Assembly: GCA_035578905.1 (NCBI GenBank)
Contig: JAQJVL010002644.1
Coordinates: 1-64,000, forward strand
Origin: Stictocephala bisonia
Taxonomy: Eukaryota; Arthropoda; Insecta; Hemiptera; Membracidae
DNA: 64,000 bases
Direction: 5' to 3'
Shown here: positions 30,355 through 57,339 of the stretch, piece by piece
How positions within the stretch are numbered: the stretch's first letter is position 1
How the letters are laid out: every line of letters begins with the position of its first letter
Position numbers and translations under genes: made by a program
The notes under the pieces: generated by a model
The model's database searches: none
The model's input: the letters and a program-made list of their open reading frames with translations, nothing else
Told to the model about the DNA's origin: nothing

Positions 30355-31356
30355 CCTGTTGTAACAGTGGTCCATTTTAGATCTACTCCATCAATGCGTT
30401 CCTGTGTCGTAAGTCGAGGGATGCTGTTCTTTCCTGTCGTCACAGTGGGTCAGTTGAGATCGACCCCATCACATCGAACGTGTGTCGACAATCGAGGGAT
30501 GCAATTCCTTCCGGTCGTCACCAAGGTCCAGTTTAGATCGACTCAATCTCTTCGATCGTTTGTCGACAATCGAGGGATGCAGCTCCTTCCTGTTGTTACA
30601 ATGGGTCCAGTTTAGATCGACCCCATCTCTTCGATCGTATGTTGACAGTTGAGGGATGCTGTTCCTTCGTGCTGTCAAAGTTGTCCAGTTTTAGATCGAC
30701 CCCATCACTTCGATCGTGTGTCGACAGTCGAGGAATGCATTTCCTTCTTGTCGTCACTATGGTTCAGTTTAGATCGACCCCTTCGATCGTCTCGACAGTC
30801 GAGGGATGCATTTCCTTCCTGTCGTCACAGTGGTTCAGTTTAGATCGACCCCTTCGATCGTGTGTCGACAGTCGAGCGATGCAGCTCCTTCCTGTCGTCA
30901 CAGTGGTTCAGTTGAGATCGACCCCATCACTTCGATCGTGTATCGTCAGTCGAGCGATGTAGCTCCTTCCTGTCGTCACAGTGGTTCAGTTTAGATCGAC
31001 CCTATCTTTTCGATAGTGTGTCGACAGTTGAGGGATGCCGTTCCTTCGTGCTGTCAAAGTGGTCCAGTTTAGATCGACCCCATCACTTCGATCGTGTGTC
31101 GTGAGTCGAGAGATGCAGTTTCTTCCTGTCGTCACAGAGGTTCAGTTTAGATAGACCCCATCTCTTCGATCGTGTGTAGACAGTCGAGCGATGCAGCTCC
31201 TTCCTGTCGTCACAGTGGTTCGGTTTAGATCGACCCCCTCTCTTCGATCGTGTGTCGACAGTCGAGAGATGCATTTCCTTCCTGTCGTCACAGTGGTTCA
31301 GTTTAGATCGACCCCATCTCTTCGATCGTGTGTCGACAGTCGAGGGATGCATTTCC
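30355..31356. repeat. 79-bp minisatellite, about 13 copies
   Basis: Units contain AGATCGACCCCATCTCTTCG, GTGTGTCGACAGTCGAGGGA and TCCTTCCTGTCGTCACAGTG. Spacing is 79 bp, with shorter ~71-bp variants around 30780-30860. GATCGA and GTCGAC palindromes recur in every unit. Frames through the array on both strands are interrupted and simply translate the unit. Confidence 0.95.
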
Positions 31357-33151
31357 TATGATGTGTCCGAATATATAATTGGTTGCGTGTAGAATGCAAA
31401 TCACGCTCGACTAGTGCATGTTTTGTTCCCCCAGACTTATAATAATTTTTATTGTCGCGGCAGAACATGCGAACAGCGAGTGCGGGAACCTGTTCGGCCA
31501 CAATGCTGTTGATTTGTCTGCTCCCCTCGTCTTGGACGGTATCCAGCCCGTACTTCATTTCCATACTATTTATTTATGCGCTCGGCCGTGTAGCGACAAT
31601 GGCCGACTCACCTCTCTCGCTTATCGCTGTACTTTTAATTACTCCCAGACATGTTAATTAACTTGTGCTCCTTTTGTGTGACTCTAATCAACATAAATAT
31701 TTTATTCCTCTAAATGAATACATTCGCTGCAATGAGCGTATATTTGTTATTTATCGTAAAGCCCCATTAAGGAGCTCTGGTAACCACTGCAATGCCGTTC
31801 TACAGCCAAGCCCTGTTTTTCTGCTCTGATCGAATTCCCCGCTTTCGTGATGGAGATATCAGACGGGTTGCTATCGAATGTACTTCATCTTAACCACATT
31901 AAACATTGCCGGCTGCTTTTCTCGGGCGCTTTCTACTTGTCGCATTTGTTTTATTGGCTTAATCAGCGATAGTGTATGATTTATTATTAGTACAAAATAT
32001 TAATTACTTTAAAGTCAAAGCTAAAATATTACTTGTTATCATGAAAAATCAAACGAAACTATTCAACCATGGTTATATAAGTGTAAAAAATACAACTATT
32101 AAGTAAAAAAAAAAAAAAACTATACAGTTGTTATAATTAGATTAGATATATAATAAGTGTTACAAATATAAGATGTTTTCAATTAAATAACAGTAATATA
32201 GGTTTTATCTAAAATATATTTAACCAATCTATTAATTCTTCAAGTCTAAAGTCCTTGAAAACTGAGTAAAATATTCTACAATCAAAATAAATTTCATCAT
32301 TTATGGAGAGGTTGAAAGAAAATACGTTGACACATCACAACATTTAATTTATAAGACCTGTAAATGATTTATTTATCCATTCATTATAAAAAAGTACACA
32401 CTATTTAACAGATATTAAGTACAAATCTAGCCTTTACATACATAAAAAACAGCAAAATGCAAGAATAATTTCCTCAGAAAAATATAGTCAAGTTGCATTC
32501 TATCAATTAACAAACAACCAACCATCAACACAGTTAGGGTTGCAATCAAACTTAGAGAAGCAAGGAACGGAAGCTAAGAAAAGTTAAAATGGAAAACAGT
32601 AGGGCACATGCAAAAGTCGTCTGCGTCCACGTTTTAGGGTTAAATATTAGTGAGGACTTTACTGTTCTAACTTCACCCCTTAATAGAGGCGTTTTTCTTT
32701 TCATCTCCCGTTCACAAATTGTGGATTCATAGAAAAATATAGCATGAACAACAACAATGAAAAGTAGTGATTGAGTATTTCACCACTGAATGGTATATTC
32801 AATTGAAATTTTGGGAGTTTTAGATGTCAGGGGAAATGTTTCAGCCAGATCTAAAATGTAGCATGCTTTTAGGTAGGAAATCTTTCTGTCATGTTAAATT
32901 TGGGAAGTACTAAGCCTAGAGAATGTTTCAGTTATTCAATATAAAGTTGTGAAGTGAAACTTTAAAACACTAGAATTTTTGACTCTACATATTTCATCAT
33001 GGAGAATGTATCAGGTTCTTTTGTAGATAAATAAGGGATGAGAGAGATTAAAAAAAAGAAATTGATAGTAAATTATGTTACGATTTTTATTATAAATTGA
33101 AGATCAATTAAATTATTATTTAGTTGCTTTTAAAACAGTTAATTAGTGGTT

Positions 33152-34430: not shown

Positions 34431-35274
34431 TAAAAATAAAAGAAGAAAGTGAAAGTTTTAAGTAAGATTTCAATTATATATTTCGTATGAACGTTTTTGG
34501 GGTTGCAAAACTGAACTTCACTTGTTTCACGGAAGAACTTTTTCTCGAGAAATCATTGTTGACGCTTATCGTTATATAATAATTAAATTTTTATTTAGTG
34601 CTATAATATGATTTTCTCATCTCGCTTTAAGATTTTAGATATTCTGATCTCTGCATGATTTAAAATGTTCATAAAGGATTGAAATTTTCTTTCTACACTC
34701 ATTCCAATATCCAATTACTTTAAAGAGTGATTTTCTGGTGTTAAAAAACATCAGGTGTTTAGTATGAGAGTTTATAATATATTTGCTGCAATCCAATGAA
34801 TTACAAAATAAACATACCTCCAATTAAGCTATTGTATAATCCCATAGATACGTGGTCGAGCTTTCATTTACAACAAATTAAACAGTTTCATTCATCATCC
34901 AACAATTTCGCCACTATTATGGTTATTTTTTTTGCAAGTACGAGAGAGAAGACCCCTTTATCATTTATTTCCTTAACGTTCACATATTGGGAGCAAGTAT
35001 TTTAAAGAAGTTGTTTTCCAGGTTAATGTATGGTTATGTTAACAAGAGAGAAATGTAGTAATTATTGGATAATGCATTGTTTTTAGTAAATCGCCCTAAG
35101 GAAGTAGAAATTGTGAACTATTTTTTGACTGATTGTTTCAAATATGCGGATTTTTCATATAAAAACCAAAGAGTAAACTTGGTTTGCCAAAAAATGATTT
35201 GCTAAGTTCGGTTTTACAAACACGTTCACATGAAAAATGTCATTAAGACTTTCAGTTTCTTCCATATTTTATAT
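34431..35274. other. AT-rich non-coding DNA
   Basis: Two overlapping short frames without domains (34635-34823 minus, 34796-35005 plus). It leads into the duplicated tRNA units. Confidence 0.35.
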
Positions 35275-35366
35275 CCTCTGGTAGCTCAGTTGGTAGAGCG
35301 GTGGAATGTAGTTGATTGTTCGTATCAGTTATCCATAGGTCGCTGGTCCAAATCCTGCCCAGAGGA
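35275..35366 (+). pseudogene. tRNA-Tyr(GTA) with intron, probable pseudogene
   Basis: Acceptor CCTCTGG pairs with CCAGAGG, the anticodon GTA is retained and a 19-nt intron follows position 37. The T arm reads GGTCCAAATCCTGC, which breaks the B box and a T-stem pair, and loop position 32 is A instead of C. The damage argues against function. Confidence 0.8.
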
Positions 35367-35893
35367 ATTCTGTTTTAGTAAAATATTTATTTACCGTAGC
35401 AACACAAAGACAAGCTTCTTCGTTTTTACTATTTATTTGGTGTTTTTATATCAGGTTTTCCTGGTCTAAACGAAAAACTTAAACAAATCGGGCACTTGTT
35501 CTACTTTGAAAATACAATTATCGTTATGAGTTATTTGTGATTAATCATAGTAAATTAGTACAAAAAATGCTTTGGCAAATATTGATGATTAAAAACTTCA
35601 TAACATGAAAGATAAGTGATAACAATTCAGTTAACAAACGCAAGAAGAATAATTGAAGATTTTAGAGAATTTGGACTAAAGCAGTAAAATTTTATACAAG
35701 AGCCTTGTCGATATCAGGTCAGCAGAACTTTATATTAAACTTAGAGTTTTTGAAGTATTTATTAAACATTGGAGCTTCGAAACCAGCAGTATGTGGATTC
35801 AACAAATGAAAACACAACCTTAAAAACAAATGTTTCAATGTTAAAAACGAACAATTAAAACACAAGACTTTCACCTTCCTCTGCAAATCGTAT

Positions 35894-35985
35894 CCTCTGG
35901 TAGCTCAGTTGGTAGAGCGGTGGACTGTAGGTGGTTGATCATATCAGTAATCCATAGGTCGCTGGTTCAAATCCGGCCCGGAGGA
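35894..35985 (+). tRNA. tRNA-Tyr(GTA) with 19-nt intron
   Basis: Folds as a complete tRNA: acceptor CCTCTGG/CCGGAGG with discriminator A, D arm GCTC/GAGC, anticodon stem GTGGA/TCCAT, T arm GCTGG/CCGGC with TTCAAAT loop. Anticodon GTA at 35927-35929. The intron is 35931-35949, at the canonical site after position 37, as in eukaryotic tRNA-Tyr. A and B boxes are intact. The terminator role could fall to the downstream TTTT runs. Variable region AGGTC. Mature length is 73 nt before CCA addition. Confidence 0.9.
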
Positions 35986-36344
35986 TTGTGTTTTGGTAAA
36001 ATATTTATTTTGCGTATCAACAAAAAACATAGATTCCTCGTTTTTTACTATTTATATGAGGTGTTATATGAGGCTTTCCTGGTCTAAACGAAACATAAAC
36101 TATTCAGGTACTTGTCTTACTTTGAAAATCTAGTATTTGTTATGAGTTATTTGTGATTGATCATAGTGAATTTGTAACGGAGAATCCTTTGGCAAATATT
36201 TACGATTTGAAAACTTAATATAATGAAAGAAAAGTGATAAAATGTCAGTTAATAAAAGCAAGAAGAATGGTTGAATGTAAGCTATACGTATAATTTTCAT
36301 TTCATTTCATTTTCATTATAAGTTGGAGATTTGAATTAACTGAA

Positions 36345-36535
36345 GAGGTGATAAAACGTATTTGGGAAACTACCACCCTATATGCTTCTTCTTATACTTG
36401 GAAAACCTTTTGAAAGAATAATATCTAATGATAATCTGAAATTTATTTCTCTCAACTAAATTTTAATAGAATCTCAATTCGATTTCATCGAAAATAAATT
36501 AACTAATGAAACATATGATTTCTTCTGTAAAGCTC
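36345..36535 (+). pseudogene. LINE reverse-transcriptase scrap within a tRNA unit
   Basis: The plus strand reads NYHPICFFLYLENLLKE, then ESQFDFIENKLTNETYDFF, equivalent to the N-Y-R-P-I-S-L-L and Q-F-G-F-R blocks at the start of a Jockey/CR1 reverse transcriptase. It has stops between blocks and is truncated on both sides. The following 36550-36780 has a B-box-like GGTTCAATTCTCG of unknown origin. Confidence 0.6.
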
Positions 36536-36850
36536 TTCAGTCTTTGAATCGTGGTGAATTGGCACCAGGAATCTTCTAAGATTAGAACAGGGCCTTTCCC
36601 GTTGTGTATCACGGGTTGCTCTTAAGTAAGCACGAGTTCTACGGCGTGGGGGCCATGCTTACTCTCTTTTCTATTCTTATTTATGTGGTAGGCATCAGTA
36701 TGTTGATTTGGTGGGTTCTGGTGGGATGGTGGCATCGCAGCTTACTCCTGTATGGCACACGGTTCAATTCTCGGACCATTACAAACGTTGCAATGTTAAA
36801 AACAAACAATTAAAACGCAACACTTTCACCTTCCTCTGATATATATGTAT

Positions 36851-36942
36851 CCTCTGGTAGCTCAGTTGGTAGAGCGGTGGACTGTAGTTGATTGTTCGTA
36901 TCAGTAATCCATAGGTCGCTGGTTCAAATCCGGCCCGGAGGA
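36851..36942 (+). tRNA. tRNA-Tyr(GTA) with 19-nt intron
   Basis: All arms are intact and identical in the mature part to the copy at 35894. The intron differs (TTGATTGTTCGTATCAGTA). The upstream flank CACTTTCACCTTCCTCTG is shared with the other units. It is the last unit before the PLE/gypsy composite. Confidence 0.9.
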
Positions 36943-37264
36943 TTGTGTTTTGGTAAAGTATTTATTTTGCGTAGGAACAAAAAGCAACGCGTTTTTACTA
37001 TTGTTGTTGGTGTTATTTGGCTTTCTTAGTCTAAACAAAACCTACAAAATTTAGGCACTTGCCCTACTTTGAAAATATAATATTTGTTATTAGTTATTTA
37101 TCATTGATAATAGTAAACTGGTGACGGAGAATGTTTTATCAAAAATATTGATGAATCATGTACAATGAAAGAAAAATGATAACATGTAAATTAAAAAAGC
37201 AAAAAGTGTGTAAGTGTATGTTCAAATTATATAATTTACAATAAAACCAATATATTTTTAATTT

Positions 37265-37312
37265 TTAACTAGGCCTTTCGCCAGCAAAGCTGGCATCATC
37301 AGGCAACACAAC
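37265..37312 (-). ncRNA. Hammerhead-ribozyme-like motif, left PLE copy
   Basis: The minus strand carries CTGATGA, the hairpin GCCAGC-TTT-GCTGGC, GAAA, GGCC and TA, the same as the right-hand copy at 48905-48955. See that entry for interpretation. Confidence 0.7.
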
Positions 37313-37421
37313 TTTATTTGTAAACAAACAAGACAATAATTAGTTCTGAAAACAGATGTAAATAATTTAAAGAATATAAGTATAAATATATTGTAAAAAA
37401 TGTATAGTGTGTATATGTATA

Positions 37422-39321
37422 TCAGAGTGTATAATTTTTAATAAAATAAGTTGATAATAAACAAGAATTTTGAATAGGTCCATTTTCATTGTTCATTAAA
37501 GATGAATTACTCTTGTTTATAAAATATGTTTCCCAGGCATTCAAGTATTTAGAAGATGAAACTGATTTTATTATTTTTGAATTTTCTTTGCTAATATTGT
37601 GATTTGTTGTTAAACAATGTCTAGCAACTGCTGACTTTTCTTCTCTGTTAAATTTAATGTGTGAAAAATGTTCTTTAAATCTTTTTTTTAAATTTCTTTT
37701 GGTTTGTCCTATGTATTTTTCTTCGCAGTTATCACAGTTAATTTCATAGATTCCTGATAGATTTTCATTTTTAATTTTATCTTTAGGGTTATTCAGTTTG
37801 TTTTTTAATTTGTTTGTAGTTTTGAATGTAGGTTTGATATTTGAATTTTTCTTGAATGAGTGTTGAATGGTTCTTGACAATTTTGTGTTAAATGTAAAAC
37901 TTGCCCAATAATTTTCTTCTTTTTCTTTTATTTCTTTTAATGTAGTCCTTGATCTTTTAATTTGTTTTTTAACAGACTTTTTTAAAATATTATCAATTAG
38001 TATAGGATCATATCCATTGTAAACAGCAATATTTTTGATATAGGAAAGTTCTTTTTCAAAATTGTCCATTCAAAGGCGTGTTTAATAATCTATAAATCAT
38101 GTTGTTGAATGCTGTTCTTTTTTGAGTTGGTGGATGATATGAGTCATTGGTGATGAATCTGTTGGTGTGAGTTGGTTTTCTATATATGTTAAAATCAAGA
38201 TTTTGAGAAATTTCATTTCTTGAAACTAAAATATCTAAAAATGGTAATTTTGAATTTGATTCAGATTCATATGTAAATTTTATTGTTGTGTAAAAAGAGT
38301 TCAATTGACTAAGAAAGTTATTTAAATTTTGATTTGTGTTAAATATTGCAAATATATCATCCACATATCTAAACCAATATTGGGGAAAATATGGTAAAGT
38401 TTCTTTGGCTTTTATTTCAAAATTACTCATAAATAGATTTGCCACAAAACAGGATAATGAATTTCCCATAGCAGTACCTTCTGTTTGTTGATAGAATTTG
38501 TTGTTAAATTGAAATATATTTTGATTTATACAAGTGTTAATTAATATAAGATATTCTTCTTTTTGTTCTTTGCATAAATTTATTGAAGTGAACCATTTTT
38601 CAAATAATTTCATTGTTTCTTTTAAAGGAACATTTGGATATAGAGAAGTAACGTCAAAAGAAACCATTATTTCATTTTCTTGTATTTTTAAATTTTTGAC
38701 ACAGTTTATGAATTCATATCGATTTTTTATTGCTAAAGATGGGAAAGGATCTAATTGTTGTAGTTTTTGTGCTAACCATTTTGATAAGTTATAGTTTGGA
38801 GCATTTATCGAATTTACAATAGGACGCATACTTTTTCCTGGTTTATGGATTTTAGGTAAACAATAGAGTCGTGCGATTGAAGGATTAGAAACATGTAAAT
38901 GTTTTATAAGATCTGGATTTATTAGAGTTTTGCATTGTTTCAAGGAATTCATTGTAGAAGTGATAAATTTTGGTAAAAGATTTTTGTCGAAAATTATGTA
39001 GGGACCAGAAATTAGCATGTTAGTCACTCTATTAAAATATTCTGTTTTGTCTAAAATAACAATAGCATTACTTTTGTCAGCTTTTAGATAAAATACATCT
39101 TTGGATTGTAATGACGTTAGTGTTTTATGATTTTGTTGTTCAATTTTGTTGTTTTTTCTTGTTTGTTTCAGATTTAATATTGTAGATTCAATATCTCTTC
39201 TAATGATATTTTTCTTATTTTCATTTAAAAATTGAATATTTGACTCCACATCAATGATTACATTTTCAATATCATTTTTGCAACTCAAATTAAAATTTAG
39301 TCCTTTATTTAGTAGGTTCAT
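37422..39321 (-). pseudogene. PLE reverse transcriptase and GIY-YIG, frameshifted
   Basis: The minus-strand counterpart of 46886-48787. The RT part is 39321-38056 and the endonuclease part continues in another frame, 38069-37422. The break is a 2-base deletion near 38070 (AATGGACAA here, AATGAGGACAA in the right arm). Motifs present are SFDVTSLYPNVP, EGTAMGNSL, FRYVDDIFAIF, YRKPTHTNRF, and SGIYEINCDNC with YIGQTKRNL. Two further residue differences from the right copy are visible (KKRFKEH and KSAVARH here). Without correction this copy cannot make the fused enzyme. Confidence 0.9.
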
Positions 39322-39544
39322 TTCTTCATCGGTAAACTTATAAGATGATTCATTATAAACTAAAACATCATCTTGAAAAGGATTTGTACATATGTTATTT
39401 TGTTTTGAGTCATTCGTATTTAAGGATATTAATTATTATTTTTTTTTATTTATTTATTTTTTTTTTTTTTATAAAATAATAATACAACATTAATAATACA
39501 AATTGAAGCTGAATAATTTCTTACTTGTACTCTCTCACCAATCC

Positions 39545-41591
39545 TTAATGATTTGTACATGCTGGTTGTTGAACCTTGTTCTTATCTGAGGAAGGGGGAA
39601 AGATAAGGTTTAGCTTGGTGCGAATATTCCAACCCATAAACTTTTCAGCAGGAGTTGCTCCGCAAGCTAAAGGTGTAGCCCGGAACCTAAACAATATTGA
39701 ATGTAGTTTCAGACTCAATGATTCCTTTTCTTCCTCCAACGACTTTAACCTCTTATTTAGGATCTGAACATACCGCTCCGCTTGCCCATTCGTCGCCGGG
39801 TGGCCAGGAGCTATAAATCTTTGCTTAATGCCATTTCTGATACAAAAATCTATAAACTCTCCAGAAGTAAATATTGAAGCGTTGTCACTCACCAAAATCT
39901 CTGGAAGGCCATTCCGAGAAAATATTTCTCGTAGCATCGTTATTGTAGATCCAGTGGAAGGAGAGCTGTTGATCATTTTAATTTCCGGCCACTTAGATTT
40001 AGCATCCACCAAAACTAAAAAATGATGCCCCTTAAAGGGCCCGGCATAATCCAAATGAACACGCTGCCAGTTTTTCTCTGGAACTTCCCAAACATGAAGA
40101 GGAGCCTTTTCGGGGTTATTCTTGATATCACAACAGGCCTTACAGTTTCTCACTGTATGCTCTATGTCAACATCAATATCTTTCCAGTAACAAAATCTTC
40201 TTGCTAATGCTTTCATCTTAACAATGCCAATATGTGTATCATGCAACTCTTGTAACACTTCGTGCTGGATTTGTTTAGGTATTACTACTCGTTGCCCTCG
40301 GAATATTATACCTCTGTATAAATGAAAGTCTGTAGAACGATCTTTGCCACTGATTAAGTCCCGTTTAAGCCTTGCCAAGTCTGGATCCTTATTAGTCTCT
40401 TCTACAATTACAGAATGAGTCACGGTCCTAGATGACACAGAATTAATCGTATGTTCCAACATTTGATCATCTTCTGATACACTTTCGATTATCGTATGAA
40501 GTGGAGTTCTTGATAAGTAATCGGCGTTTGCATGTTGCTCTGATTTCCGGTGCTGCACATGATAATTGAAATTACTCAAAAATGCGGCATACCGAAGAAG
40601 TCGAGTAGCTGATGTAGTAGGTAAAGCCTTGTTGGGATGGAAAATAGTTTGTAAAGGTTTGTTGTCGACAATTTAGAGTAAACTTCCTGCCAAATAAATA
40701 TTGGTAAAATCTATTGAATGACCAAAACACTGCCAGTGCTTCCTTGTCCAACTGTGAATAACCTTTTTCAGCAGGTGTCAAAGATCTTGATATGAAAGCA
40801 ATAGGGTGTTCTTCTCCATTTATGATATGAGATAATACTCCTGAAATTCCTTTCGGTCCTGCGTCTGTTGCAAGTGTCAATGGAAGACTTGAATCAAATG
40901 GAACTAGCACTCTGTCACTGATGATCTCATTTTTAATTTCTACAAAAGCATTTTCACAATTACGTGACCAACAGAATTTGACATTCTTATGCAACAACTG
41001 GTTTAAAGGCTGAAGTATTTCAGACGATCTTGGAATAAACTTTGAGTAATAGGCAGTGAGTCCAAGGAAACTCCTAAGTTCTTCTGTGTTCGTAGGCCGA
41101 GCTGATTCAACTATTGCTTTAACTTTTTCAGGGCATTTCTTTAAGCCATTGACCCCAATTACATGACCTAAGTATTTTATTTCCTTTTTGAAAAATTGGC
41201 ATTTATCAAGATTGATGTGGAGGTTCAATTTTCTCATTCTGGTCAAACATTTCTCTAGACGCTCCCTACATTCTAAAACACTTGTTCCCTGAATAACAAT
41301 ATCATCAAAGTAGGAAACTGTACCTTCCAGGTCGCGTATTGCATTATCGACAACTCTCTGAAATTCATTGGGCGCTGTTTTAATTCCAAACGCCAGCCGA
41401 TTCATTAAAAACGTACCTTTGTGGGTAGAAATAGTCTGTAATACTTTAGCTTCATCATCAACTTCCAAATGGTGATATGCCTTGTGAATGTCGAGGGTAC
41501 AAAAGTACTTTCCCCCTTTCATTTTATGGAATATATCTTCTATTAGAGGTATAGGATATCTTGCATCCATTAACTGGGGGTTAAGAGTCAT
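39545..41591 (-). pseudogene. Ty3/gypsy pol (RT, RNase H, integrase), frameshifted, left arm
   Basis: RT from 41591 downward has LDIHKAYHHLEVDDEAK, the catalytic SYFDDIVIQG and FLGLTAYYSKFIP. RNase H follows with LATDAGPKGISGVLSH. An extra A in CTCTAAATTGTCGAC (about 40670) shifts the frame. Integrase (40579-39545) shows the zinc-binding LHDTHIGIVKMKALARRF with C-x2-C (NCKACC), then catalytic D in HLDYAGPFKG, D in LVSDNASIF and E in HPATNGQAERY. It ends early at ACTNH, because the copy stops before the normal integrase C-terminus. The same frameshift occurs in the right arm. Upstream, RT begins in the gag-protease frame, and a 4-base insertion at about 41640 separates the two. Confidence 0.9.
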
Positions 41592-41622
41592 TTTGTAATC
41601 TATGCAAAGGCGGACATCTCCA

Positions 41623-43335
41623 TTAGGCTTCGGAACTATTTATTACTAATGGTGAACCCCAGTCTGAATACTCAGTTTTTGTGATGATTCCTTGATTTTC
41701 TAGTTCTTCAAGTTCTTTTTCAACCTTTTCTTGAAGTGCGTAAGGAACAGGTCTATGTTTTAAAAACACAGGCTTGATGTTAGGTTTTGTCTTAATAGAG
41801 CATTTGTAATTGGGTATTTTTCCAATCTTCTTTTCAAACACATCACTGTAGGATGCTACGATTTCTTGCTTTATTGATCCTAAATCATATTCAGCAGGTG
41901 TACTCGATTCTACTTTATTGATGCTTATGTATAAGCGTCGGAGCCATGTACGTCCTAATATTGCTGTAGAAGATGTTTCCACAACATATAAATCCTCTAC
42001 GGATTTTCGTCCATCATATTCTACCAGGACTCGTGCAACTCCTAAAGGAGAGAAACTTTCACATGTATAAGTCCTGAAACGAGCATCAGTCTTCTTCAAA
42101 GCATGGTCTATCTGTAAATTCTTGAATTCTTTACTATTCATAATACTAACTGGACTGCCAGAATCAACTTCAAACTCAACTACTTTATTGCCGCTTATTG
42201 TAATGGGCACTATAAACTTTGAATCATCTAGCAACACTTTCTTGGTGTTATTAATTTCAATTAGTTTGTTGACATCAAATCGATCTGTAAGATCTGTTTC
42301 TGCTTCAAAACCACGTTCAGATTCACCTACTTCTCGTACATTCTGCTGCCTCATATTAACGTTTCCAGATAATGATTGAATGCACACTTTAGAAACATGA
42401 CCGAACCGATTGCAAAGTTGGCATTTTAATGTTGACTTTTCTCGCTTACAATTCTTAGCAATGTGGTTTCCATATCCACATCTGAAACACAGATTATCGA
42501 TTCCCAGAGTTTTAAAATCAAACTTTCTAATTCTGGTTACATCATTCGCAGGCATTGAGTTGCTCCCTCTCGTAGACGGCTTTCCTTCTCTCCTGGCTGA
42601 GCCTCCAGCATTTGAAAACACTTTATTAACAGATTCATTAAATTTAGAGCCTCGAGACATTTCTAAATTTCCCAACTTTGACGCTTCCAGAGCAAGAGCG
42701 ATTTTACAGGCCTTGTCAAATGTCAAAGACTTTTCATGTAACAGTTTTTCCCTGATTGATGTATCGTATAATCCTCTTATGAATTGCGCTCGTAGAAACT
42801 GATCTGCTATAGATTTTCCACAATCTTTGTTTTCACAGATAAATTGGCATGTTATTGTTAATTTTCGTAGAGCTGCAATAAATTCAGCAATAGATTCTTC
42901 GGGTAACTGAACGCGGCAGAAAAATTTATGTTGTTCCGTATGAACATTAGGGCCTGGGCAAAGATGATTCTCCAACAAGGCAACTAAGTTGTCATAAGGC
43001 TTAGAAGAAGGTATATCGGGAGCTGTAAGACTCGACAGAAGTTGATAATATTTGATCCCAATACTGTTAATCAAAATGCGGGCCTTCAGTTCTTTATTCT
43101 CATCGATTGAACCAAGCTTGAGAGCAAAAAAGTTTTCCAGTCTTTCCCTATAGCATCTAAACGTCTCCTTAGACTCATCAAAAGTATCGAAACTTATTAC
43201 ACCTAATGTAGGCTCATTTATTTCTGCTCTGTTTATTTGTCCTGTTGTCGCAGCCTCGAATTTACTAATTAATAAAGAAATTGCGTGCGTCAAAGCTGTA
43301 ATGTTTTGATCTGCCATATAAGAAATGTAATGCAC
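41623..43335 (-). CDS. Ty3/gypsy Gag-protease with start of RT
   Basis: A 570-codon frame starting ATG at 43335. Residues about 40-235 form the capsid-like Gag region (SFDTFDESKETFRCYRERL and AEFIAALRKLTITCQFICEN are characteristic of Gag in insect gypsy elements). Two CCHC zinc knuckles follow: CFRCGYGNHIAKNC and CQLCNRFGHVSKVC (about residues 283-320). The aspartic protease is at about 385 (FEVDSGSPVSIM). The RT N-terminus (KHRPVPYALQEKVEKELEEL, EYSDWGSPLVI) runs to a frameshift caused by a 4-base duplication near 41640. Only this half of the composite retains gag; the right arm starts at the RT. No envelope gene exists. The frame itself is intact, so the protein could still be made. Confidence 0.9.
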   Translation of the reverse strand: MHYISYMADQNITALTHAISLLISKFEAATTGQINRAEINEPTLGVISFDTFDESKETFRCYRERLENFFALKLGSIDENKELKARILINSIGIKYYQLLSSLTAPDIPSSKPYDNLVALLENHLCPGPNVHTEQHKFFCRVQLPEESIAEFIAALRKLTITCQFICENKDCGKSIADQFLRAQFIRGLYDTSIREKLLHEKSLTFDKACKIALALEASKLGNLEMSRGSKFNESVNKVFSNAGGSARREGKPSTRGSNSMPANDVTRIRKFDFKTLGIDNLCFRCGYGNHIAKNCKREKSTLKCQLCNRFGHVSKVCIQSLSGNVNMRQQNVREVGESERGFEAETDLTDRFDVNKLIEINNTKKVLLDDSKFIVPITISGNKVVEFEVDSGSPVSIMNSKEFKNLQIDHALKKTDARFRTYTCESFSPLGVARVLVEYDGRKSVEDLYVVETSSTAILGRTWLRRLYISINKVESSTPAEYDLGSIKQEIVASYSDVFEKKIGKIPNYKCSIKTKPNIKPVFLKHRPVPYALQEKVEKELEELENQGIITKTEYSDWGSPLVINSSEA

Positions 43336-43486
43336 CTACCTAGTTGAATATACCAGTACCAAGGTAACTTTGATTTTTATTGAAGTAGGCGGATTTACCT
43401 ACCAAAAGTCATAAATGAAAAAAAAAACAACAACAAACACGTTCTAAAACTTGAAAGAAAACTAATTACCTGATTATCCTCGTCAC

Positions 43487-43605
43487 CAAATTATTAAATA
43501 CTAACTGAATTCGAACAACATTTTTCAATGTTGTTGTTTAAGGTTTTTAAAAATTAAACAAGTTTTTTTTTAATTTTTTAATTATTTAAATATTAATTTA
43601 GAAAT
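43487..43605 (-). promoter_or_regulatory. Putative gypsy leader: R-U5 remnant and primer-binding site
   Basis: On the minus strand, TGGTGACGAGGA (43498-43487) follows ATAATT directly. The TGG-start and position ~150 bp upstream of gag fit a tRNA primer-binding site just after an LTR. Only ~105 bp lie between it and the junction with PLE sequence (43605), less than a full LTR but the expected size of R-U5. That would mean the gypsy part was copied from its RNA. The primer tRNA is not identified. Confidence 0.45.
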
Positions 43606-43710
43606 CGAAAGGCCTAGTTAAAAATTAAAAATATATTGGTTTTATTGTAAATTATATAATTTGAACATATTATTAAATGACCAATATCAACTCTCAACTT
43701 CACTACTGAA
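43606..43710 (+). repeat. PLE terminal repeat (pseudo-LTR), 5' copy
   Basis: CGAAAGGCCTAGTTAAAAAT at 43606 and the following ~100 bp to CTTCACTA match the right end of the composite (48939-49038). They start inside the hammerhead motif, at its GAAA box. This is the partial tandem terminal repeat (pseudo-LTR) typical of PLEs. Confidence 0.75.
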
Positions 43711-44545
43711 ATGACACTCAAGTCAAAAGAGTTGAACAAATTACACAAATTGAAACAGAAAGCAAGACTCATAACCCTAGACATCAAATTCCTCAAACAA
43801 TGTAAGTATAATAAAGTTTTTCCAAAATTCATCAAAATTAACACACCCATTAAAAATAAAACAACTGAAAAAGTAATTCTAAATGCAAAATTTGATTGGC
43901 TTAGACTAGAAATTAAAAACATGTATGCTAAACAACAAGATTTGGAACTGAAGTCACTTGAACAACACTTGTACATAACCAAAAGTTTAAATGGTGTAGA
44001 ATCAGATTATTTCAACGAAAAATATAATAATATATTAAACTCTATTGATTTCAAATATAATAAAAAGAAAATAACACTAGATAAAAAATTAATATCCTTA
44101 AATACGAATGACTCAAAACAAAATAACATATGTACAAATCCTTTTCAAGATGATGTTTTAGTTTATAATGAATCATCTTATAAGTTTACCGATGAAGAAA
44201 TGAACCTACTAAATAAAGGACTAAATTTTAATTTGAGTTGCAAAAATGATATTGAAAATGTAATCATTGATGTGGAGTCAAATATTCAATTTTTAAATGA
44301 AAATAAGAAAAATATCATTAGAAGAGATATTGAATCTACAATATTAAATCTGAAACAAACAAGAAAAAACAACAAAATTGAACAACAAAATCATAAAACA
44401 CTAACGTCATTACAATCCAAAGATGTATTTTATCTAAAAGCTGACAAAAGTAATGCTATTGTTATTTTAGACAAAACAGAATATTTTAATAGAGTGACTA
44501 ACATGCTAATTTCTGGTCCCTACATAATTTTCGACAAAAACCCTT
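43711..44545 (+). pseudogene. PLE N-terminal part, truncated
   Basis: An open frame beginning MTLKSKELNKLHKLKQKAR, about 277 PLE-derived codons, ending when PLE sequence stops at GACAAAAA (44541) and the TAA-repeat region begins. It contains the basic, helix-rich N-terminal region and the first RT block (DKSNAIVILDKTEYF). The last ~440 bp (from about 44093) are present again at 46784 onward as the start of the right-hand PLE, so this fragment supplies exactly the 5' region that both arm copies lack. It has no catalytic residues. Confidence 0.85.
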
Positions 44546-44573
44546 TACTTGTCGTAATAATAATAATAATGTC

Positions 44574-44615
<42 letters not shown>

Positions 44616-44620
44616 TAATA
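44546..44620. repeat. (TAA)n tract at the PLE-gypsy junction
   Basis: GTCGTAATAATAATAATG repeats, followed by about 14 TAA units, then ATGACTC of gypsy RT. It marks the inner boundary of the right arm. Confidence 0.9.
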
Positions 44621-46754
44621 ATGACTCTTAACCCCCAGTTAATGGATGCAAGATATCCTATACCTCTAATAGAAGATATATTCCATAAAATGAAAGGGGG
44701 AAAGTACTTTTGTACCCTCGACATTCACAAGGCATATCACAATTTGGAAGTTGATGATGAAGCTAAAGTATTACAGACTATTTCTACCCACAAAGGTACG
44801 TTTTTAATGAATCGGCTGGCGTTTGGAATTAAAACAGCGCCCAATGAATTTCAGAGAGTTGTCGATAATGCAATACGCGACCTGGAAGGTACAGTTTCCT
44901 ACTTTGATGATATTGTTATTCAGGGAACAAGTGTTTTAGAATGTAGGGAGCGTCTAGAGAAATGTTTGACCAGAATGAGAAAATTGAACCTCCACATCAA
45001 TCTTGATAAATGCCAATTTTTCAAAAAGGAAATAAAATACTTAGGTCATGTAATTGGGGTCAATGGCTTAAAGAAATGCCCTGAAAAAGTTAAAGCAATA
45101 GTTGAATCAGCTCGGCCTACGAACACAGAAGAACTTAGGAGTTTCCTTGGACTCACTGCCTATTACTCAAAGTTTATTCCAAGATCGTCTGAAATACTTC
45201 AGCCTTTAAACCAGTTGTTGCATAAGAATGTCAAATTCTGTTGGTCACGTAATTGTGAAAATGCTTTTGTAGAAATTAAAAATGAGATCATCAGTGACAG
45301 AGTGCTAGTTCCATTTGATTCAAGTCTTCCATTGACACTTGCAACAGACGCAGGACCGAAAGGAATTTCAGGAGTATTATCTCATATCATAAATGGAGAA
45401 GAACACCCTATTGCTTTCATATCAAGATCTTTGACACCTGCTGAAAAAGGTTATTCACAGTTGGACAAGGAAGCACTGGCAGTGTTTTGGTCATTCAATA
45501 GATTTTACCAATATTTATTTGGCAGGAAGTTTACTCTAAATTGTCGACAACAAACCTTTACAAACTATTTTCCATCCCAACAAGGCTTTACCTACTACAT
45601 CAGCTACTCGACTTCTTCGGTGTGCCGCATTTTTGAGTAATTTCAATTATCATGTGCAGCACCGGAAATCAGAGCAACATGCAAACGCCGATTACTTATC
45701 AAGAACTCCACTTCATACGATAATCGAAAGTGTATCAGAAGATGATCAAATGTTGGAACATACGATTAATTCTGTGTCATCTAGGACCGTGACTCATTCT
45801 GTAATTGTAGAAGAGACTAATAAGGATCCAGACTTGGCAAGGCTTAAACGGGACTTAATCAGTGGCAAAGATCGTTCTACAGACTTTCATTTATACAGAG
45901 GTATAATATTCCGAGGGCAACGAGTAGTAATACCTAAACAAATCCAGCACGAAGTGTTACAAGAGTTGCATGATACACATATTGGCATTGTTAAGATGAA
46001 AGCATTAGCAAGAAGATTTTGTTACTGGAAAGATATTGATGTTGACATAGAGCATACAGTGAGAAACTGTAAGGCCTGTTGTGATATCAAGAATAACCCC
46101 GAAAAGGCTCCTCTTCATGTTTGGGAAGTTCCAGAGAAAAACTGGCAGCGTGTTCATTTGGATTATGCCGGGCCCTTTAAGGGGCATCATTTTTTAGTTT
46201 TGGTGGATGCTAAATCTAAGTGGCCGGAAATTAAAATGATCAACAGCTCTCCTTCCACTGGATCTACAATAACGATGCTACGAGAAATATTTTCTCGGAA
46301 TGGCCTTCCAGAGATTTTGGTGAGTGACAACGCTTCAATATTTACTTCTGGAGAGTTTATAGATTTTTGTATCAGAAATGGCATTAAGCAAAGATTTATA
46401 GCTCCTGGCCACCCGGCGACGAATGGGCAAGCGGAGCGGTATGTTCAGATCCTAAATAAGAGGTTAAAGTCGTTGGAGGAAGAAAAGGAATCATTGAGTC
46501 TGAAACTACATTCAATATTGTTTAGGTTCCGGGCTACACCTTTAGCTTGCGGAGCAACTCCTGCTGAAAAGTTTATGGGTTGGAATATTCGCACCAAGCT
46601 AAACCTTATCTTTCCCCCTTCCTCAGATAAGAACAAGGTTCAACAACCAGCATGTAAATCATTAAGGATTGGTGAGAGAGTACAAGTAAGAAATTATTCA
46701 GCTTCAATTTGTATTATTAATGTTGTATTATTATTTTATAAAAAAAAAAAATAA
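44621..46754 (+). pseudogene. Ty3/gypsy pol, frameshifted, right arm
   Basis: Counterpart of 39545-41591. RT frame 44621-45640 (AYHNLEVDD here, AYHHLEVDD on the left), catalytic YFDD, RNase H DAG motif. The same extra A after TTTACTCTAAA (about 45540) forces the frame change, and integrase is in 45633-46754 with the H-H-C-C, D, D and E motifs intact. Gypsy sequence stops after RIGERVQVRNYS (about 46705), in the integrase C-terminus. It continues into an A-rich tract (TTATAAAAAAAAAAAATAAA) and then PLE. No gag or protease precedes this copy. The apparent ATG is simply the first methionine after the arm boundary. Confidence 0.9.
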
Positions 46755-46885
46755 ATAAATAAAAAAAATAATAATTAATATCCTTAAATACGAATGACTC
46801 AAAACAAAATAACATATGTACAAATCCTTTTCAAGATGATGTTTTAGTTTATAATGAATCATCTTATAAGTTTACCGATGAAGAA

Positions 46886-48787
46886 ATGAACCTACTAAAT
46901 AAAGGACTAAATTTTAATTTGAGTTGCAAAAATGATATTGAAAATGTAATCATTGATGTGGAGTCAAATATTCAATTTTTAAATGAAAATAAGAAAAATA
47001 TCATTAGAAGAGATATTGAATCTACAATATTAAATCTGAAACAAACAAGAAAAAACAACAAAATTGAACAACAAAATCATAAAACACTAACGTCATTACA
47101 ATCCAAAGATGTATTTTATCTAAAAGCTGACAAAAGTAATGCTATTGTTATTTTAGACAAAACAGAATATTTTAATAGAGTGACTAACATGCTAATTTCT
47201 GGTCCCTACATAATTTTCGACAAAAATCTTTTACCAAAATTTATCACTTCTACAATGAATTCCTTGAAACAATGCAAAACTCTAATAAATCCAGATCTTA
47301 TAAAACATTTACATGTTTCTAATCCTTCAATCGCACGACTCTATTGTTTACCTAAAATCCATAAACCAGGAAAAAGTATGCGTCCTATTGTAAATTCGAT
47401 AAATGCTCCAAACTATAACTTATCAAAATGGTTAGCACAAAAACTACAACAATTAGATCCTTTCCCATCTTTAGCAATAAAAAATCGATATGAATTCATA
47501 AACTGTGTCAAAAATTTAAAAATACAAGAAAATGAAATAATGGTTTCTTTTGACGTTACTTCTCTATATCCAAATGTTCCTTTAAAAGAAACAATGAAAT
47601 TATTTGAAAAATGGTTCACTTCAATAAATTTATGCAAAGAACAAAAAGAAGAATATCTTATATTAATTAACACTTGTATAAATCAAAATATATTTCAATT
47701 TAACAACAAATTCTATCAACAAACAGAAGGTACTGCTATGGGAAATTCATTATCCTGTTTTGTGGCAAATCTATTTATGAGTAATTTTGAAATAAAAGCC
47801 AAAGAAACTTTACCATATTTTCCCCAATATTGGTTTAGATATGTGGATGATATATTTGCAATATTTAACACAAATCAAAATTTAAATAACTTTCTTAGTC
47901 AATTGAACTCTTTTTACACAACAATAAAATTTACATATGAATCTGAATCAAATTCAAAATTACCATTTTTAGATATTTTAGTTTCAAGAAATGAAATTTC
48001 TCAAAATCTTGATTTTAACATATATAGAAAACCAACTCACACCAACAGATTCATCACCAATGACTCATATCATCCACCAACTCAAAAAAGAACAGCATTC
48101 AACAACATGATTTATAGATTATTAAACACGCCTTTGAATGAGGACAATTTTGAAAAAGAACTTTCCTATATCAAAAATATTGCTGTTTACAATGGATATG
48201 ATCCTATACTAATTGATAATATTTTAAAAAAGTCTGTTAAAAAACAAATTAAAAGATCAAGGACTACATTAAAAGAAATAAAAGAAAAAGAAGAAAATTA
48301 TTGGGCAAGTTTTACATTTAACACAAAATTGTCAAGAACCATTCAACACTCATTCAAGAAAAATTCAAATATCAAACCTACATTCAAAACTACAAACAAA
48401 TTAAAAAACAAACTGAATAACCCTAAAGACAAAATTAAAAATGAAAATCTATCAGGAATCTATGAAATTAACTGTGATAACTGCGAAGAAAAATACATAG
48501 GACAAACCAAAAGAAATTTAAAAATAAGATTCAAAGAACATTTTTCACACATTAAATTTAACAGAGAAGAAAAGTTAGCAGTTGCTAGACATTGTTTAAC
48601 AACAAATCACAATATTAGCAAAGAAAATTCAAAAATAATAAAATCAGTTTCATCTTCTAAATACTTGAATGCCTGGGAAACATATTTTATAAACAAGAGT
48701 AATTCATCTTTAATGAACAATGAAAATGGACCTATTCAAAATTCTTGTTTATTATCAACTTATTTTATTAAAAATTATACACTCTGA
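46886..48787 (+). CDS. Penelope-like element RT plus GIY-YIG endonuclease, open frame
   Basis: An uninterrupted 633-codon frame. RT motifs in order: DKSNAIVILDK (about 78-88), LYCLPKIHKPGKSMRPIVNS (about 151-170), catalytic aspartate in SFDVTSLYPNVP (about 221), EGTAMGNSLSCFVANLF, YVDD in WFRYVDDIFAIF (about 320), KLPFLDILVSR and the PLE signature YRKPTHTNRF. A linker leads to GIY-YIG: SGIYEINCDNCEEKYIGQTK (about 527-546), then R in RFKEH, H in VARHCL and E in AWETYF. The protein would nick the target and prime reverse transcription in the nucleus. The first ~130 codons of the native protein are missing (an in-frame stop lies just upstream, near 46774), so the copy is N-terminally truncated. 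The catalytic residues I can see are all present. Confidence 0.92.
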   Translation: MNLLNKGLNFNLSCKNDIENVIIDVESNIQFLNENKKNIIRRDIESTILNLKQTRKNNKIEQQNHKTLTSLQSKDVFYLKADKSNAIVILDKTEYFNRVTNMLISGPYIIFDKNLLPKFITSTMNSLKQCKTLINPDLIKHLHVSNPSIARLYCLPKIHKPGKSMRPIVNSINAPNYNLSKWLAQKLQQLDPFPSLAIKNRYEFINCVKNLKIQENEIMVSFDVTSLYPNVPLKETMKLFEKWFTSINLCKEQKEEYLILINTCINQNIFQFNNKFYQQTEGTAMGNSLSCFVANLFMSNFEIKAKETLPYFPQYWFRYVDDIFAIFNTNQNLNNFLSQLNSFYTTIKFTYESESNSKLPFLDILVSRNEISQNLDFNIYRKPTHTNRFITNDSYHPPTQKRTAFNNMIYRLLNTPLNEDNFEKELSYIKNIAVYNGYDPILIDNILKKSVKKQIKRSRTTLKEIKEKEENYWASFTFNTKLSRTIQHSFKKNSNIKPTFKTTNKLKNKLNNPKDKIKNENLSGIYEINCDNCEEKYIGQTKRNLKIRFKEHFSHIKFNREEKLAVARHCLTTNHNISKENSKIIKSVSSSKYLNAWETYFINKSNSSLMNNENGPIQNSCLLSTYFIKNYTL

Positions 48788-48904
48788 TATATATATATAT
48801 ATATATACACACTATACATTGTTTACAATATATTTATACTTATATTCTTTAAATTATTTACATCTGTTTTCAGAACTAATTATTGTCTTGTTTGTTTACA
48901 AATA

Positions 48905-48955
48905 AAGTTGTGTTGCCTGATGATGCCAGCTTTGCTGGCGAAAGGCCTAGTTAAA
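48905..48955 (+). ncRNA. Hammerhead-ribozyme-like motif at PLE 3' end
   Basis: CTGATGA (48917-48923), stem II GCCAGC/GCTGGC with TTT loop (48925-48939), GAAA (48940-48943), palindromic GGCC (48944-48947), TA (48948-48949) as the putative cleavage dinucleotide. These are the hammerhead core elements in order and spacing. Stem III would be only a self-complementary GGCC, which can pair only between two molecules, as reported for small hammerheads associated with Penelope-like elements. Stem I pairing is weak by eye. It would process PLE transcripts at the terminal repeats. Confidence 0.75.
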
Positions 48956-49292
48956 AATTAAAAATATATTGGTTTTATTGTAAATTATTTAATTTGAACA
49001 TATTATTAAGTGACCAATATCAACTCTCAACTTCACTAGTGTAAGTGTAGTCTATTCGTATAACTTATACTGTATTTAAGTTGAAGACTTGGCCAAAATA
49101 GTAAAAGTCTTTTCGGTTTCAGTTCAGTAGAACCTTAAATTAACATTTCATTCATTTAGTGTTTTTGAAGTATTTACTAAATCAGCAGTATGTGGACGCA
49201 ACAAATGAAAACATAATCTTAAAAACAAACGTTTAAATGTTAAAAACGAACAATTGAAACACAAGACTTTCACCTTCCTCTGCTATATGTAT

Positions 49293-49384
49293 CCTCTGGT
49301 AGCTCAGTTGGTAGAGCGGTGGACTGTAGGTGGTTGTTCATATCAGTAATCCATAGGTCGCTGGTTCAAATCCGGCCCGGAGGA
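49293..49384 (+). tRNA. tRNA-Tyr(GTA) with 19-nt intron
   Basis: Mature sequence is the same as the copies at 35894 and 36851. Intron GTGGTTGTTCATATCAGTA follows position 37. All stems and both internal promoter boxes are intact, and upstream CAAGACTTTCACCTTCCTC is conserved. It lies just right of the composite, belonging to the unit series the composite interrupted. Confidence 0.9.
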
Positions 49385-50039
49385 TTGTGTTTTGGTAAAA
49401 TATTTACTTTCCGTAGCAACAAAAAGCAAAGTTTCTTCGTTTTTATTACTGCATTTCGTGTTGAATTATTAATAAAAATTCAGTTTCGTACCAACATTAT
49501 TGGAAGGAATGACTTTTACCTCAATGAACATTTCCTAGATGTCTGCCTGTTATGCTAAATATATGACAGATCAATTGTGTATTTCTTGAATAGTATGTGT
49601 CTGTAACTTGTATGTTTCACGTATACTTGAAACACCGTACAATAACAACATACACTCAAAATTGTGTCATCGACAAGATTATTTTTATGAACTAATGAAA
49701 TATAATACGGAAATTAAAACCAACAAGCAATTTTCTTACATTCCTTGTTGTTGCAAGTAGATGGCGACAATCGTTTATAATTCAACAAAAAATAAAAATT
49801 CCTGCAATACAATTTCAAACAACAGCTTAAATGACTAATAGAACAATAAACGTTTAACATAATTTCGCAAACTTTTAATAATAATTCTTAATTTACATCC
49901 AGTACAACATGTTTCTCATAAATTGCATAGGAGATACAGTCGAGGTATTGAAAAATTATAAATATTATACATGTCACGAATAGTCCTCAAGCAATACATA
50001 AATTGACACTAATGAAAGATATTCCAAGATATTTTGCTG
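49385..50039. other. tRNA-unit trailer and AT-rich DNA
   Basis: The first ~70 bp are the conserved downstream flank of the tRNA unit. The rest is featureless. Confidence 0.4.
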
Positions 50040-51106: not shown

Positions 51107-52390
51107 GCATCCTGCTAGTTCCGATAAGTAAAGGCAGCATCCTGCTAGTTCCGATAAGTAAAGGCGACACCACAGGCAGCATCCTGCTAGTTCCGATAAG
51201 TAAAGGCGACACCACAGGCAGCATCCTGCTAGTTCCGATAAGTAAAGGCGACACCACAGGCAGCATCCTGCTAGTTCCGTTCCGATAAGTAAAGGCGACA
51301 CCACAGGCAGCATCCTGCTAGTTCCGATAAGTAAAGGCGACACCACAGGCAGCATCCTGCTAGTTACGATAAGTAAAGGCGACACCACAGGCAGCATCCT
51401 GCTAGTTCCGATAAGTAAAGGCGACACCACAGGCAGCATCCTGCTAGTTACGATAAGTAAAGGCGACATACGCAGCATCCTACTAGTTCCGATAAGTAAA
51501 GGCGACACCACAGGCAGCATCCTGCTAGTTCCGATAAGTAAAGGCGACACCACAGGCAGCATCCTGCTAGTTCCGATAAGTAAAGGCGACACCACAGGCA
51601 GCATCCTACTAGTTCCGATAAGTAAAGGCGACACCACAGGCAGCATCCTGCTAGTTCCGATAAGTAAAGGCGACACCACAGGCAGCATCCTGCTAGTTCC
51701 GTTCCGATAAGTAAAGGCGACACCACAGGCAGCATCCTGCTAGTTACGATAAGTAAAGGCGACACCACAGGCAGCATCCTGCTAGTTCCGATAAGTAAAG
51801 GCGACACCATAGGCAGCATCCTGCTAGTTCCGATAAGTAAAGGCGACACCACAGGCAGCATCCTGCTAGTTCCGATAAGTAAAGGCGACACCACAGGCAG
51901 CATCCTACTAGTTCCGATAAGTAAAGGCGACACCACAGGCAGCATCCTGCTAGTTCCGATAAGTAAAGGCGACACCACAGGCAGCATCCTGCTAGTTCCG
52001 TTCCGATAAGTAAAGGCGACACCACAGGCAGCATCCTGCTAGTTCCGATAAGTAAAGGCGACACCACAGGCAGCATCCTGCTAGTTCCGATAAGTAAAGG
52101 CGACACCATAGGCAGCATCCTGCTAGTTCCGATAAGTAAAGGCGACACCACAGGCAGCATCCTACTAGTTCCGATAAGTAAAGGTGACACCACAGGCAGC
52201 ATCCTGCTAGTTCCGTTCCGATAAGTAAAGGCGACACCACAGGCAGCATCCTGCTAGTTCCGATAAGTAAAGGCGACACCACAAGCAGCATCCTGCTAGT
52301 TCCGATGAGTAAATGCAACACCACAGGCAGCATCCTGCTAGTTCTAAGGAGTAAAGGCAGGTAAGTAAAGGCGACACCACAGGCAGAATC
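51107..52390. repeat. 42-bp minisatellite, about 30 copies
   Basis: Unit CAGCATCCTGCTAGTTCCGA plus TAAGTAAAGGCGACACCACA plus GG. A variant with a GTTCC insertion (CCGTTCCGATAAG) recurs at about 51278, 51700, 52000 and 52213, giving a higher-order pattern with other variants (TTACGATAAG, CCTACTAG). On the minus strand every unit encodes MLPVVSPLLIGTSR, so frames up to 197 codons exist. The 5-bp insertions shift them, and there is no flanking gene structure. Treated as non-coding. Confidence 0.95.
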
Positions 52391-57247: not shown

Positions 57248-57339
57248 TCCTCCGGGTCGGATTTGAACCAGCGACCTATAGATAACTTATATGAACAACC
57301 AACTACAGTCCATCGCTCTACCATCTGAGCTACCAGAGG
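57248..57339 (-). tRNA. tRNA-Tyr(GTA) with 19-nt intron, diverged copy
   Basis: Acceptor CCTCTGG/CCGGAGG, anticodon GTA and intron TTGGTTGTTCATATAAGTT are retained. The anticodon stem has changed on both sides (ATGGA/TCTAT) yet still pairs. The T arm ends CCGAC, giving one C-A mismatch with GCTGG, and the D loop has AGATGGTA. The downstream TTGTGTTTTGGTAAAATATT matches the other units. It may be functional or a young pseudogene. Confidence 0.75.

Follow-up and report, generated by a model that had tools for sequence, protein, structure and literature searches.

Gypsy sequence carried in both arms of an inverted Penelope-like element insertion in Stictocephala bisonia

The insertion considered here lies at 37219–49038 of a 64-kb stretch of Stictocephala bisonia DNA, hereafter the window, which comprises bases 1–64000 of the 88,177-bp contig C2644 (JAQJVL010002644.1) in assembly GCA_035578905.1 (1.68 Gb, 11,105 contigs). 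It is 11.8 kb long and consists of two head-to-head arms within one 11-bp target duplication, each arm being a 5'-truncated, endonuclease-bearing Penelope-like element (PLE) fused to Ty3/gypsy pol; between the arms lie a PLE 5' piece and the gypsy 5' part, which only the left arm possesses. The structure is very probably the product of one PLE integration that brought gypsy sequence along. An initial annotation of the window had described an inverted PLE and gypsy structure of about 11.8 kb with one target duplication, which was confirmed, GTGTAAGTGTA standing at both borders, and its proposal that the gypsy sequence was captured by the PLE machinery is also supported. As to the route, we lean towards a gypsy-PLE chimeric template copied by PLE reverse transcription that was primed on both target strands.

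The insertion in a tRNA gene array

The features of the insertion and of its target are given below with strand and basis.

37208–37218 (+): target-site duplication, left copy, GTGTAAGTGTA; exact, two copies in the window
37219–39437 (−): left arm, PLE 3' part with reverse transcriptase (RT) and GIY-YIG, 5'-truncated and tail-less; Pfam RVT_1 and GIY-YIG, family copies
39438–39505 (−): PLE/gypsy joint, a 68-nt AT-rich filler (94% AT), not gypsy; missing from 10 of 10 fetched gypsy copies, composition
39506–43527 (−): left arm, Ty3/gypsy with gag, RT, RNase H and integrase, pol frame broken; Pfam, 10 fetched gypsy copies
43528–43605 (no strand): 78-nt AT-rich filler from the gypsy 5' end to the PLE 5' end, the head-to-head centre; composition, gypsy copies without it
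43606–44548 (+): PLE 5' part, with two private variants common to the PLE of both arms; family comparison
44549–44619 (+): 71-nt (TAA)n-rich filler from the PLE 5' part to gypsy pol; composition, repeat analysis
44620–46706 (+): right arm, gypsy pol (RT, RNase H, integrase); inverted copy of 39506–41592
46707–46769 (+): right-arm AT-rich filler, joint the same as that of the left arm; arm alignment, pattern search
46770–49038 (+): right arm, PLE 3' part, open frame of 670 aa (RT, GIY-YIG); Pfam, arm alignment
49003–49038 (+): PLE tail, final 36 nt of the right arm; right end only
49039–49049 (+): target-site duplication, right copy; exact
36851–36942 (+): intron-containing tRNA gene (Tyr by eye) of the target array; Rfam RF00005
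49293–49384 (+): next tRNA gene of the target array; Rfam RF00005

Within the window, GTGTAAGTGTA occurs exactly twice, in direct orientation, once at each outer end of the insertion, both of these being PLE 3' ends. When the two flanks are joined, they align across the insertion point to array units at 35245–36045 and 35826–36312 (79 and 80% identity, respectively), which are paralogous rather than allelic empty sites. The single target duplication, together with the alignment of the joined flanks through the insertion point, therefore indicates one integration event. The target is a tandem array of intron-containing tRNA genes (35275–36942 and 49293–49384), with one further copy on the minus strand (57248–57339). 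These genes appear by eye to be Tyr; ARAGORN assigned two of four to Leu and left the other two unnamed.

In the 670-aa frame of the right arm, Pfam places the reverse transcriptase before the nuclease (RVT_1, 1.1e-12; GIY-YIG, 4.6e-07), and the PLE reading frame of the left arm is broken near 38068. The gypsy domain order by Pfam is RT, RNase H and integrase, while matches to gag and protease are weak and fall below curated cut-offs. A search of solved structures with the PLE protein returned no match up to an E-value of 0.01. The PLE 3' end repeats the PLE 5' end in the window, as expected of tandem copies with pseudo-long terminal repeats (pLTRs). Rfam gave no match to a hammerhead ribozyme in the pLTR up to an E-value of 5 within 36000–50000; a CTGATGA..GAAA core, as in hammerhead motifs, is visible by eye.

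The structure had been called a palindrome. Alignment of the arms, which the initial annotation had suggested, bears out the inversion, as 37217–41592 and 44620–49002 are inverted copies of each other, and does not bear out the symmetry: the left arm runs through gag to 43527 and the right arm starts in pol at 44620, where it is preceded by the (TAA)n filler and by a third PLE piece (43606–44548, +). The 36-nt tail is likewise confined to the right.

The gypsy family of this genome measures about 4.7 kb, with long terminal repeats (LTRs) of about 143 bp. Genome searches with gypsy sequence gave 111 candidates, and 140 with a query spanning the PLE/gypsy joint, the best 40 being scored from each. 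Ten fetched copies are 98.3–99.0% identical to the window copy, which marks this family as the source of the cargo; LTR pairs of 141–149 bp are present in seven of them; of the other three, one has a shorter pair and two have no pair. Unlike the family copies, which extend past both of its ends, the window gypsy is 3'-truncated and has no LTR pair, beginning 36 nt before the LTR 3' end and stopping about 430 bp short of the 3' LTR. Those 36 nt are the only LTR sequence at the locus, and neither an LTR pair nor an integrase-type target duplication was found there; because the LTR pair is absent, the gypsy did not insert here by its own route. A TATA-like TAAATAAG is seen by eye about 30 nt upstream of the gypsy start in the LTRs of other copies, so that this start is predicted to be the point at which gypsy RNA would begin. 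Adjoining the LTR is TGGCGACGAGG, which presumably represents a primer-binding site. A poly(A)-tailed gypsy RNA was considered as the site of the jump and was not supported, as about 30 nt of other AT-rich sequence precedes the A tract in the joint.

The absence of an LTR pair around the gypsy also makes it improbable that gypsy and PLE copies were nested by serial insertions and subsequently rearranged by an inverted duplication of DNA. PLE copies do take in other elements, as on contig C2356 (stretch L007, from 2640), where about 2.5 kb of other sequence lies inside a PLE. At the window locus, however, no inner target duplication was noticed, only the outermost one being found, and had the inverted duplication come later, the two outer PLE ends would not both be flanked by a direct target duplication. 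The extra sequence on C2356 was itself examined as a possible capture and rejected, since by eye it resembles an ordinary element insertion of the DNA transposon type.

Both arms from one chimera

The arms differ very unevenly along their length. In the 2,087 bp of gypsy there are two substitutions and a 2-bp indel, and in the 1,364 bp of inner PLE there is no substitution. The outer 851 bp of PLE contain seven substitutions and vary in the length of a (TA)n run, and a further 2-bp indel marks their inner edge, near 38068. The fillers between gypsy and PLE (39438–39505 and 46707–46769) are distinguished by three inserted or deleted bases. These differences, nine substitutions and several indels in total, argue against an assembly or library artefact such as a hairpin read or collapsed copies, as do the asymmetry of the structure, the coincidence of the palindrome ends with the PLE ends and the target duplication, and the head-to-head PLE pairs on 13 further contigs examined. 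The structure is known from the assembly alone, the contig is short and its repeats are many; even so, an artefact is highly improbable.

Private substitutions common to both arms, six in gypsy and 11 in the PLE, are found in none of the comparators (10–29 rows per site for gypsy and 5–12 copies for the PLE; the gypsy rows come from no more than 19 distinct places, ten of which were fetched twice). Both arms also carry the pol frameshift reported in the initial annotation, which is missing from all nine gypsy copies in which the site was found (10 searched). The shared joint, private gypsy and PLE substitutions and frameshift thus indicate that both arms derive from one chimera. The earlier view that fusion preceded duplication is supported by the common joint and private variants; its description of a common A-rich junction holds as regards the sharing of the joint and fails as regards its nature, the joint being an AT-rich filler of 63–68 nt rather than a plain poly(A) tail.

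Over 1,271 bp of the inner PLE, the arms are identical and the next copy scores 61 bits lower among the best 40 of 610 candidates. The PLE 5' piece shares two private PLE states with the arms and lacks two others near its end (partly by eye). With the 461-base joint query, both halves were matched only at the two places in the window, the other 38 of the 40 scored places (of 140 candidates) matching gypsy alone. A 41-nt pattern over the gypsy-filler joint, with up to three mismatches allowed, likewise has two places in the 1.68-Gb assembly, both in this window. The suggested search for other PLE-gypsy junctions with the same breakpoint thus yielded no place beyond these two; an amplified chimera was rejected on both searches, and the chimera is one without visible spread.

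Seven of the nine arm substitutions fall in the outer fifth (Fisher p = 3e-4, gypsy being grouped with the inner part), and the difference between the outer 851-bp parts is comparable with that of other pairs of the family (median 5, range 0–8). For eight of the nine, the state of one arm occurs in no comparator; for the ninth, the left-arm state is also found in one other copy (L004, from contig C2087). This distribution suggests that two PLE templates contributed the two outer ends and were joined by a homology-based template switch. Different PLE sources for the whole arms were also considered, and the idea was rejected for the inner part, with its 0 differences, and retained for the outer 0.85 kb.

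Head-to-head copies and a second capture in the PLE family

PLE copies are numerous in this genome, and head-to-head insertion is common in the family. Two PLE queries were used in genome searches, giving 2,276 and 610 first-look candidates, of which the best 40 were scored from each. Among the best 40 of the 2,276, opposite-strand PLE pairs within 15 kb were present on 10 of 24 contigs, with the 3' ends outward on all ten. The second query added four head-to-head contigs (C141, C6938, C1174 and C97). Fourteen head-to-head centres were read, of which 12 contain no foreign sequence and two do (this window and C345). At six centres no more than about 6 nt separate the copies (C644, C292, C90, C35, C5457 and C4861), and AT-rich fillers occupy the remaining eight (C2087, C224, C97, C1174, C6938, C141, the window and C345). 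Nine fillers at PLE joints measure 17–78 nt and are 80–94% AT, compared with 75% for the PLE itself and 65% for the window outside it; the 29-nt filler of C141 includes about 13 nt of PLE by the boundary from the second PLE search. Fillers are seen, for example, at 518–549 of L048 (C6938), 481–523 of L049 (C97) and 1254–1297 of L004, some of them with short inverted or trinucleotide repeats. On C4861 (L045 and L046), one head-to-head centre is present twice on a 40.6-kb contig, as if the whole PLE insertion had been duplicated; because the contig holds the PLE pair twice, its units also face each other. Its inverted copies show seven substitutions in 1,265 and five in 1,264 positions.

Where both ends of an insertion are seen, the PLE tail is present at exactly one of them (three of three: the window, C644 and C345), and the target duplications measure 11 bp in the window, 11–12 bp on C644 and 12 bp on C345. 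Three PLE 5' ends (the window, C6938 and C5457) fall within about 5 bases of one another, directly 3' of a short hairpin recognized by eye.

The second foreign sequence comes from a leucyl-aminopeptidase gene (Pfam Peptidase_M17_N) and occupies 725 bp among PLE copies on C345 (L039, 2869–3593). An inverted PLE copy with a truncated 5' end comes first, followed by 17 nt of AT-rich filler, the aminopeptidase piece and a tandem PLE array. L039 takes in two complete units of this array and the beginning of a third, spaced 2,642 and 2,644 bp, with further copies to its right on the contig. Two copies of TAGTTGATATTA, a 12-bp target duplication, bound the insertion. Neither end of the piece coincides with an end of the gene, and its sense is that of the PLE array; the matching gene on C234 differs by one mismatch in 725 and is uninterrupted over the captured piece, so that splicing is uninformative as to an RNA template. 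We read the aminopeptidase piece as a template jump, which supports a jump for gypsy as well, although the gypsy cargo is present in both arms. The initial annotation had raised the possibility that such mobilization is general: a second capture by the same family speaks for it, whereas the joint of the gypsy chimera, found only in this window, speaks against its propagation. Foreign sequence thus seems to have been picked up by this PLE family at least twice in the genome.

Elsewhere in the window, long tandem repeats occupy 1637–4866, 30351–31357, 51132–52358 and 57523–58682, with units of 83, 78, 42 and 109 bp, respectively.

Proposed mechanism and known systems

A fusion of separate sequences on the sense strand inside one target duplication is found both in the window and on C345, and each of the three kinds of inner joint in the window insertion carries an AT-rich filler. 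In the sequence of events that we favour, the PLE protein would cut both target strands and prime one first strand on each. Each first strand would start at a PLE 3' end, one from the tail site and one from an inner site, and proceed inward, both copying the chimeric template, which extends from the gypsy 5' end to the PLE 3' end. Two-strand priming would account for head-to-head copies and two start sites for a tail on some ends. The left strand would run to the gypsy 5' end, the expected start of promoter-driven gypsy RNA. The right strand would begin on a different PLE RNA, switch by homology to the chimera about 0.9 kb in, leave gypsy at 44620 via (TAA)n for the 5' part of PLE RNA and stop directly 3' of the short hairpin in that part, after which the two strands would meet and be joined through 78 AT-rich nucleotides. 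The chimera itself may have arisen in an earlier or in the same event, by an RT jump from truncated PLE cDNA onto gypsy RNA, or alternatively by transcription reading through a gypsy copy that contained a truncated PLE.

Several observations weigh against this reading. The searches revealed no donor locus for the chimeric joint (461-base query, best 40 of 140 candidates; assembly-wide 41-nt pattern), nor any PLE copy close to the arms among the best 40 of 610 candidates, and the chimeric RNA is hypothetical for these reasons. The gypsy is truncated on its 3' side without a clear poly(A) tail, and the position of its 5' boundary may be a coincidence. Nor is the PLE 5' piece an exact copy of the molecule behind the arms, as it departs from them at two sites close to its end. 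Mutation together with conversion of the inner part between the arms could instead explain the seven outer differences, and the absence of eight of the nine arm states from the comparators is as expected of new mutations. Inverted arms elsewhere differ too, by five substitutions in 483 positions on C6938 and three in 449 on C35.

Formation of a fold-back in one event, as the initial annotation proposed, would dispense with the chimeric donor, of which none was found. A first strand would jump from PLE to gypsy RNA; its 3' end, or a second strand, would anneal back to the gypsy part via (TAA)n and copy the arm, and the far end would be closed by a separate, homology-joined PLE cDNA. Such a course is in keeping with inner arms that are nearly identical and an outer 0.85 kb that resembles two templates, with a joint at 44620 that lies in (TAA)n and adjoins a short match with gypsy, and with the near identity (at most one substitution) of inverted copies on five of the eight measurable contigs of the family (C644, C2087, C292, C345 and C90). 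However, the plus strand must also gain 943 nt of sense PLE between gypsy and (TAA)n, and the tail, present on the right end and missing from the left arm, shows that the right end was not copied from the left. Moreover, priming on both strands explains head-to-head copies more simply, and, because purified PLE protein is reported to prime both target strands (PMC11167929), a fold-back is not required for them. We regard the fold-back as less likely, though the strongest of the rivals weighed here. A further rival for the head-to-head form is self-priming on an antisense template, the explanation adopted in the accessible part of PMC3846280.

A wider reading is offered tentatively: the reverse transcriptase of this PLE family may readily leave its own RNA, add AT-rich nucleotides and continue on nearby host or LTR-element RNA. 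Combined with two-strand priming, this would yield PLE-framed retrocopies of foreign transcripts and make PLEs a second route, beside long interspersed elements (LINEs), for the copying and shuffling of genes and other elements. As the two captures suggest, PLEs may be the true source of some of the retrocopies and hybrid elements now ascribed to LINEs. PLE integration is poorly known, and the many similar head-to-head insertions provide a natural record of the reaction in their target duplications, one-sided tails (where both ends are seen), often near-identical arms and AT-rich fillers. The two captures act as marked templates for ordering its steps, namely two-strand priming, template jumps and joining.

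Movement of foreign sequence by PLE machinery is already published for a rotifer. According to the accessible text of Arkhipova and colleagues (PMC3846280), a Penelope element of Adineta vaga captured an intron-bearing non-ribosomal peptide synthetase (NRPS) gene within an 8-bp target duplication, with inverted pLTRs, an optional tail and (AAT)n-rich inserts ascribed to self-priming and template jumps. The present insertions resemble that case in the foreign sequence inside PLE terminal parts, the inverted PLE part, the single target duplication, the trans-action of PLE enzymes and the repeat-rich inserts. In contrast, the rotifer cargo keeps its introns and lies between direct pLTRs, whereas LTR-element sequence occupies both arms here and the cargo on C345 corresponds to an uninterrupted stretch of its gene. 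No PLE-gypsy chimera or PLE capture of LTR-element RNA was met in the literature searched, which was covered by title and start of abstract and included few subscription papers. To the known uptake of foreign genes by PLEs, the present case adds LTR-element sequence captured in both arms and, within one PLE family, a gene fragment picked up separately.

As described in the accessible portion of Frangieh and colleagues (PMC11167929), the purified PLE protein of a lizard cleaves the two target strands and extends each of them, starting at two adjacent sites inside the RNA that match the genomic tail. That element, PAc, a Poseidon PLE of Anolis, resembles the present family in being a GIY-YIG PLE with tandem copies and an optional tail; the work on it is in vitro, and foreign capture is not mentioned in that portion. 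The chimeric retrogenes of Magnaporthe (PMC2104539) are comparable in that copies made from separate transcripts are fused in one retro-insertion, by template jumps; the machinery there is that of a LINE, and head-to-head arms do not appear in the part of the report that was available, whereas the gypsy cargo described here lies in such arms.

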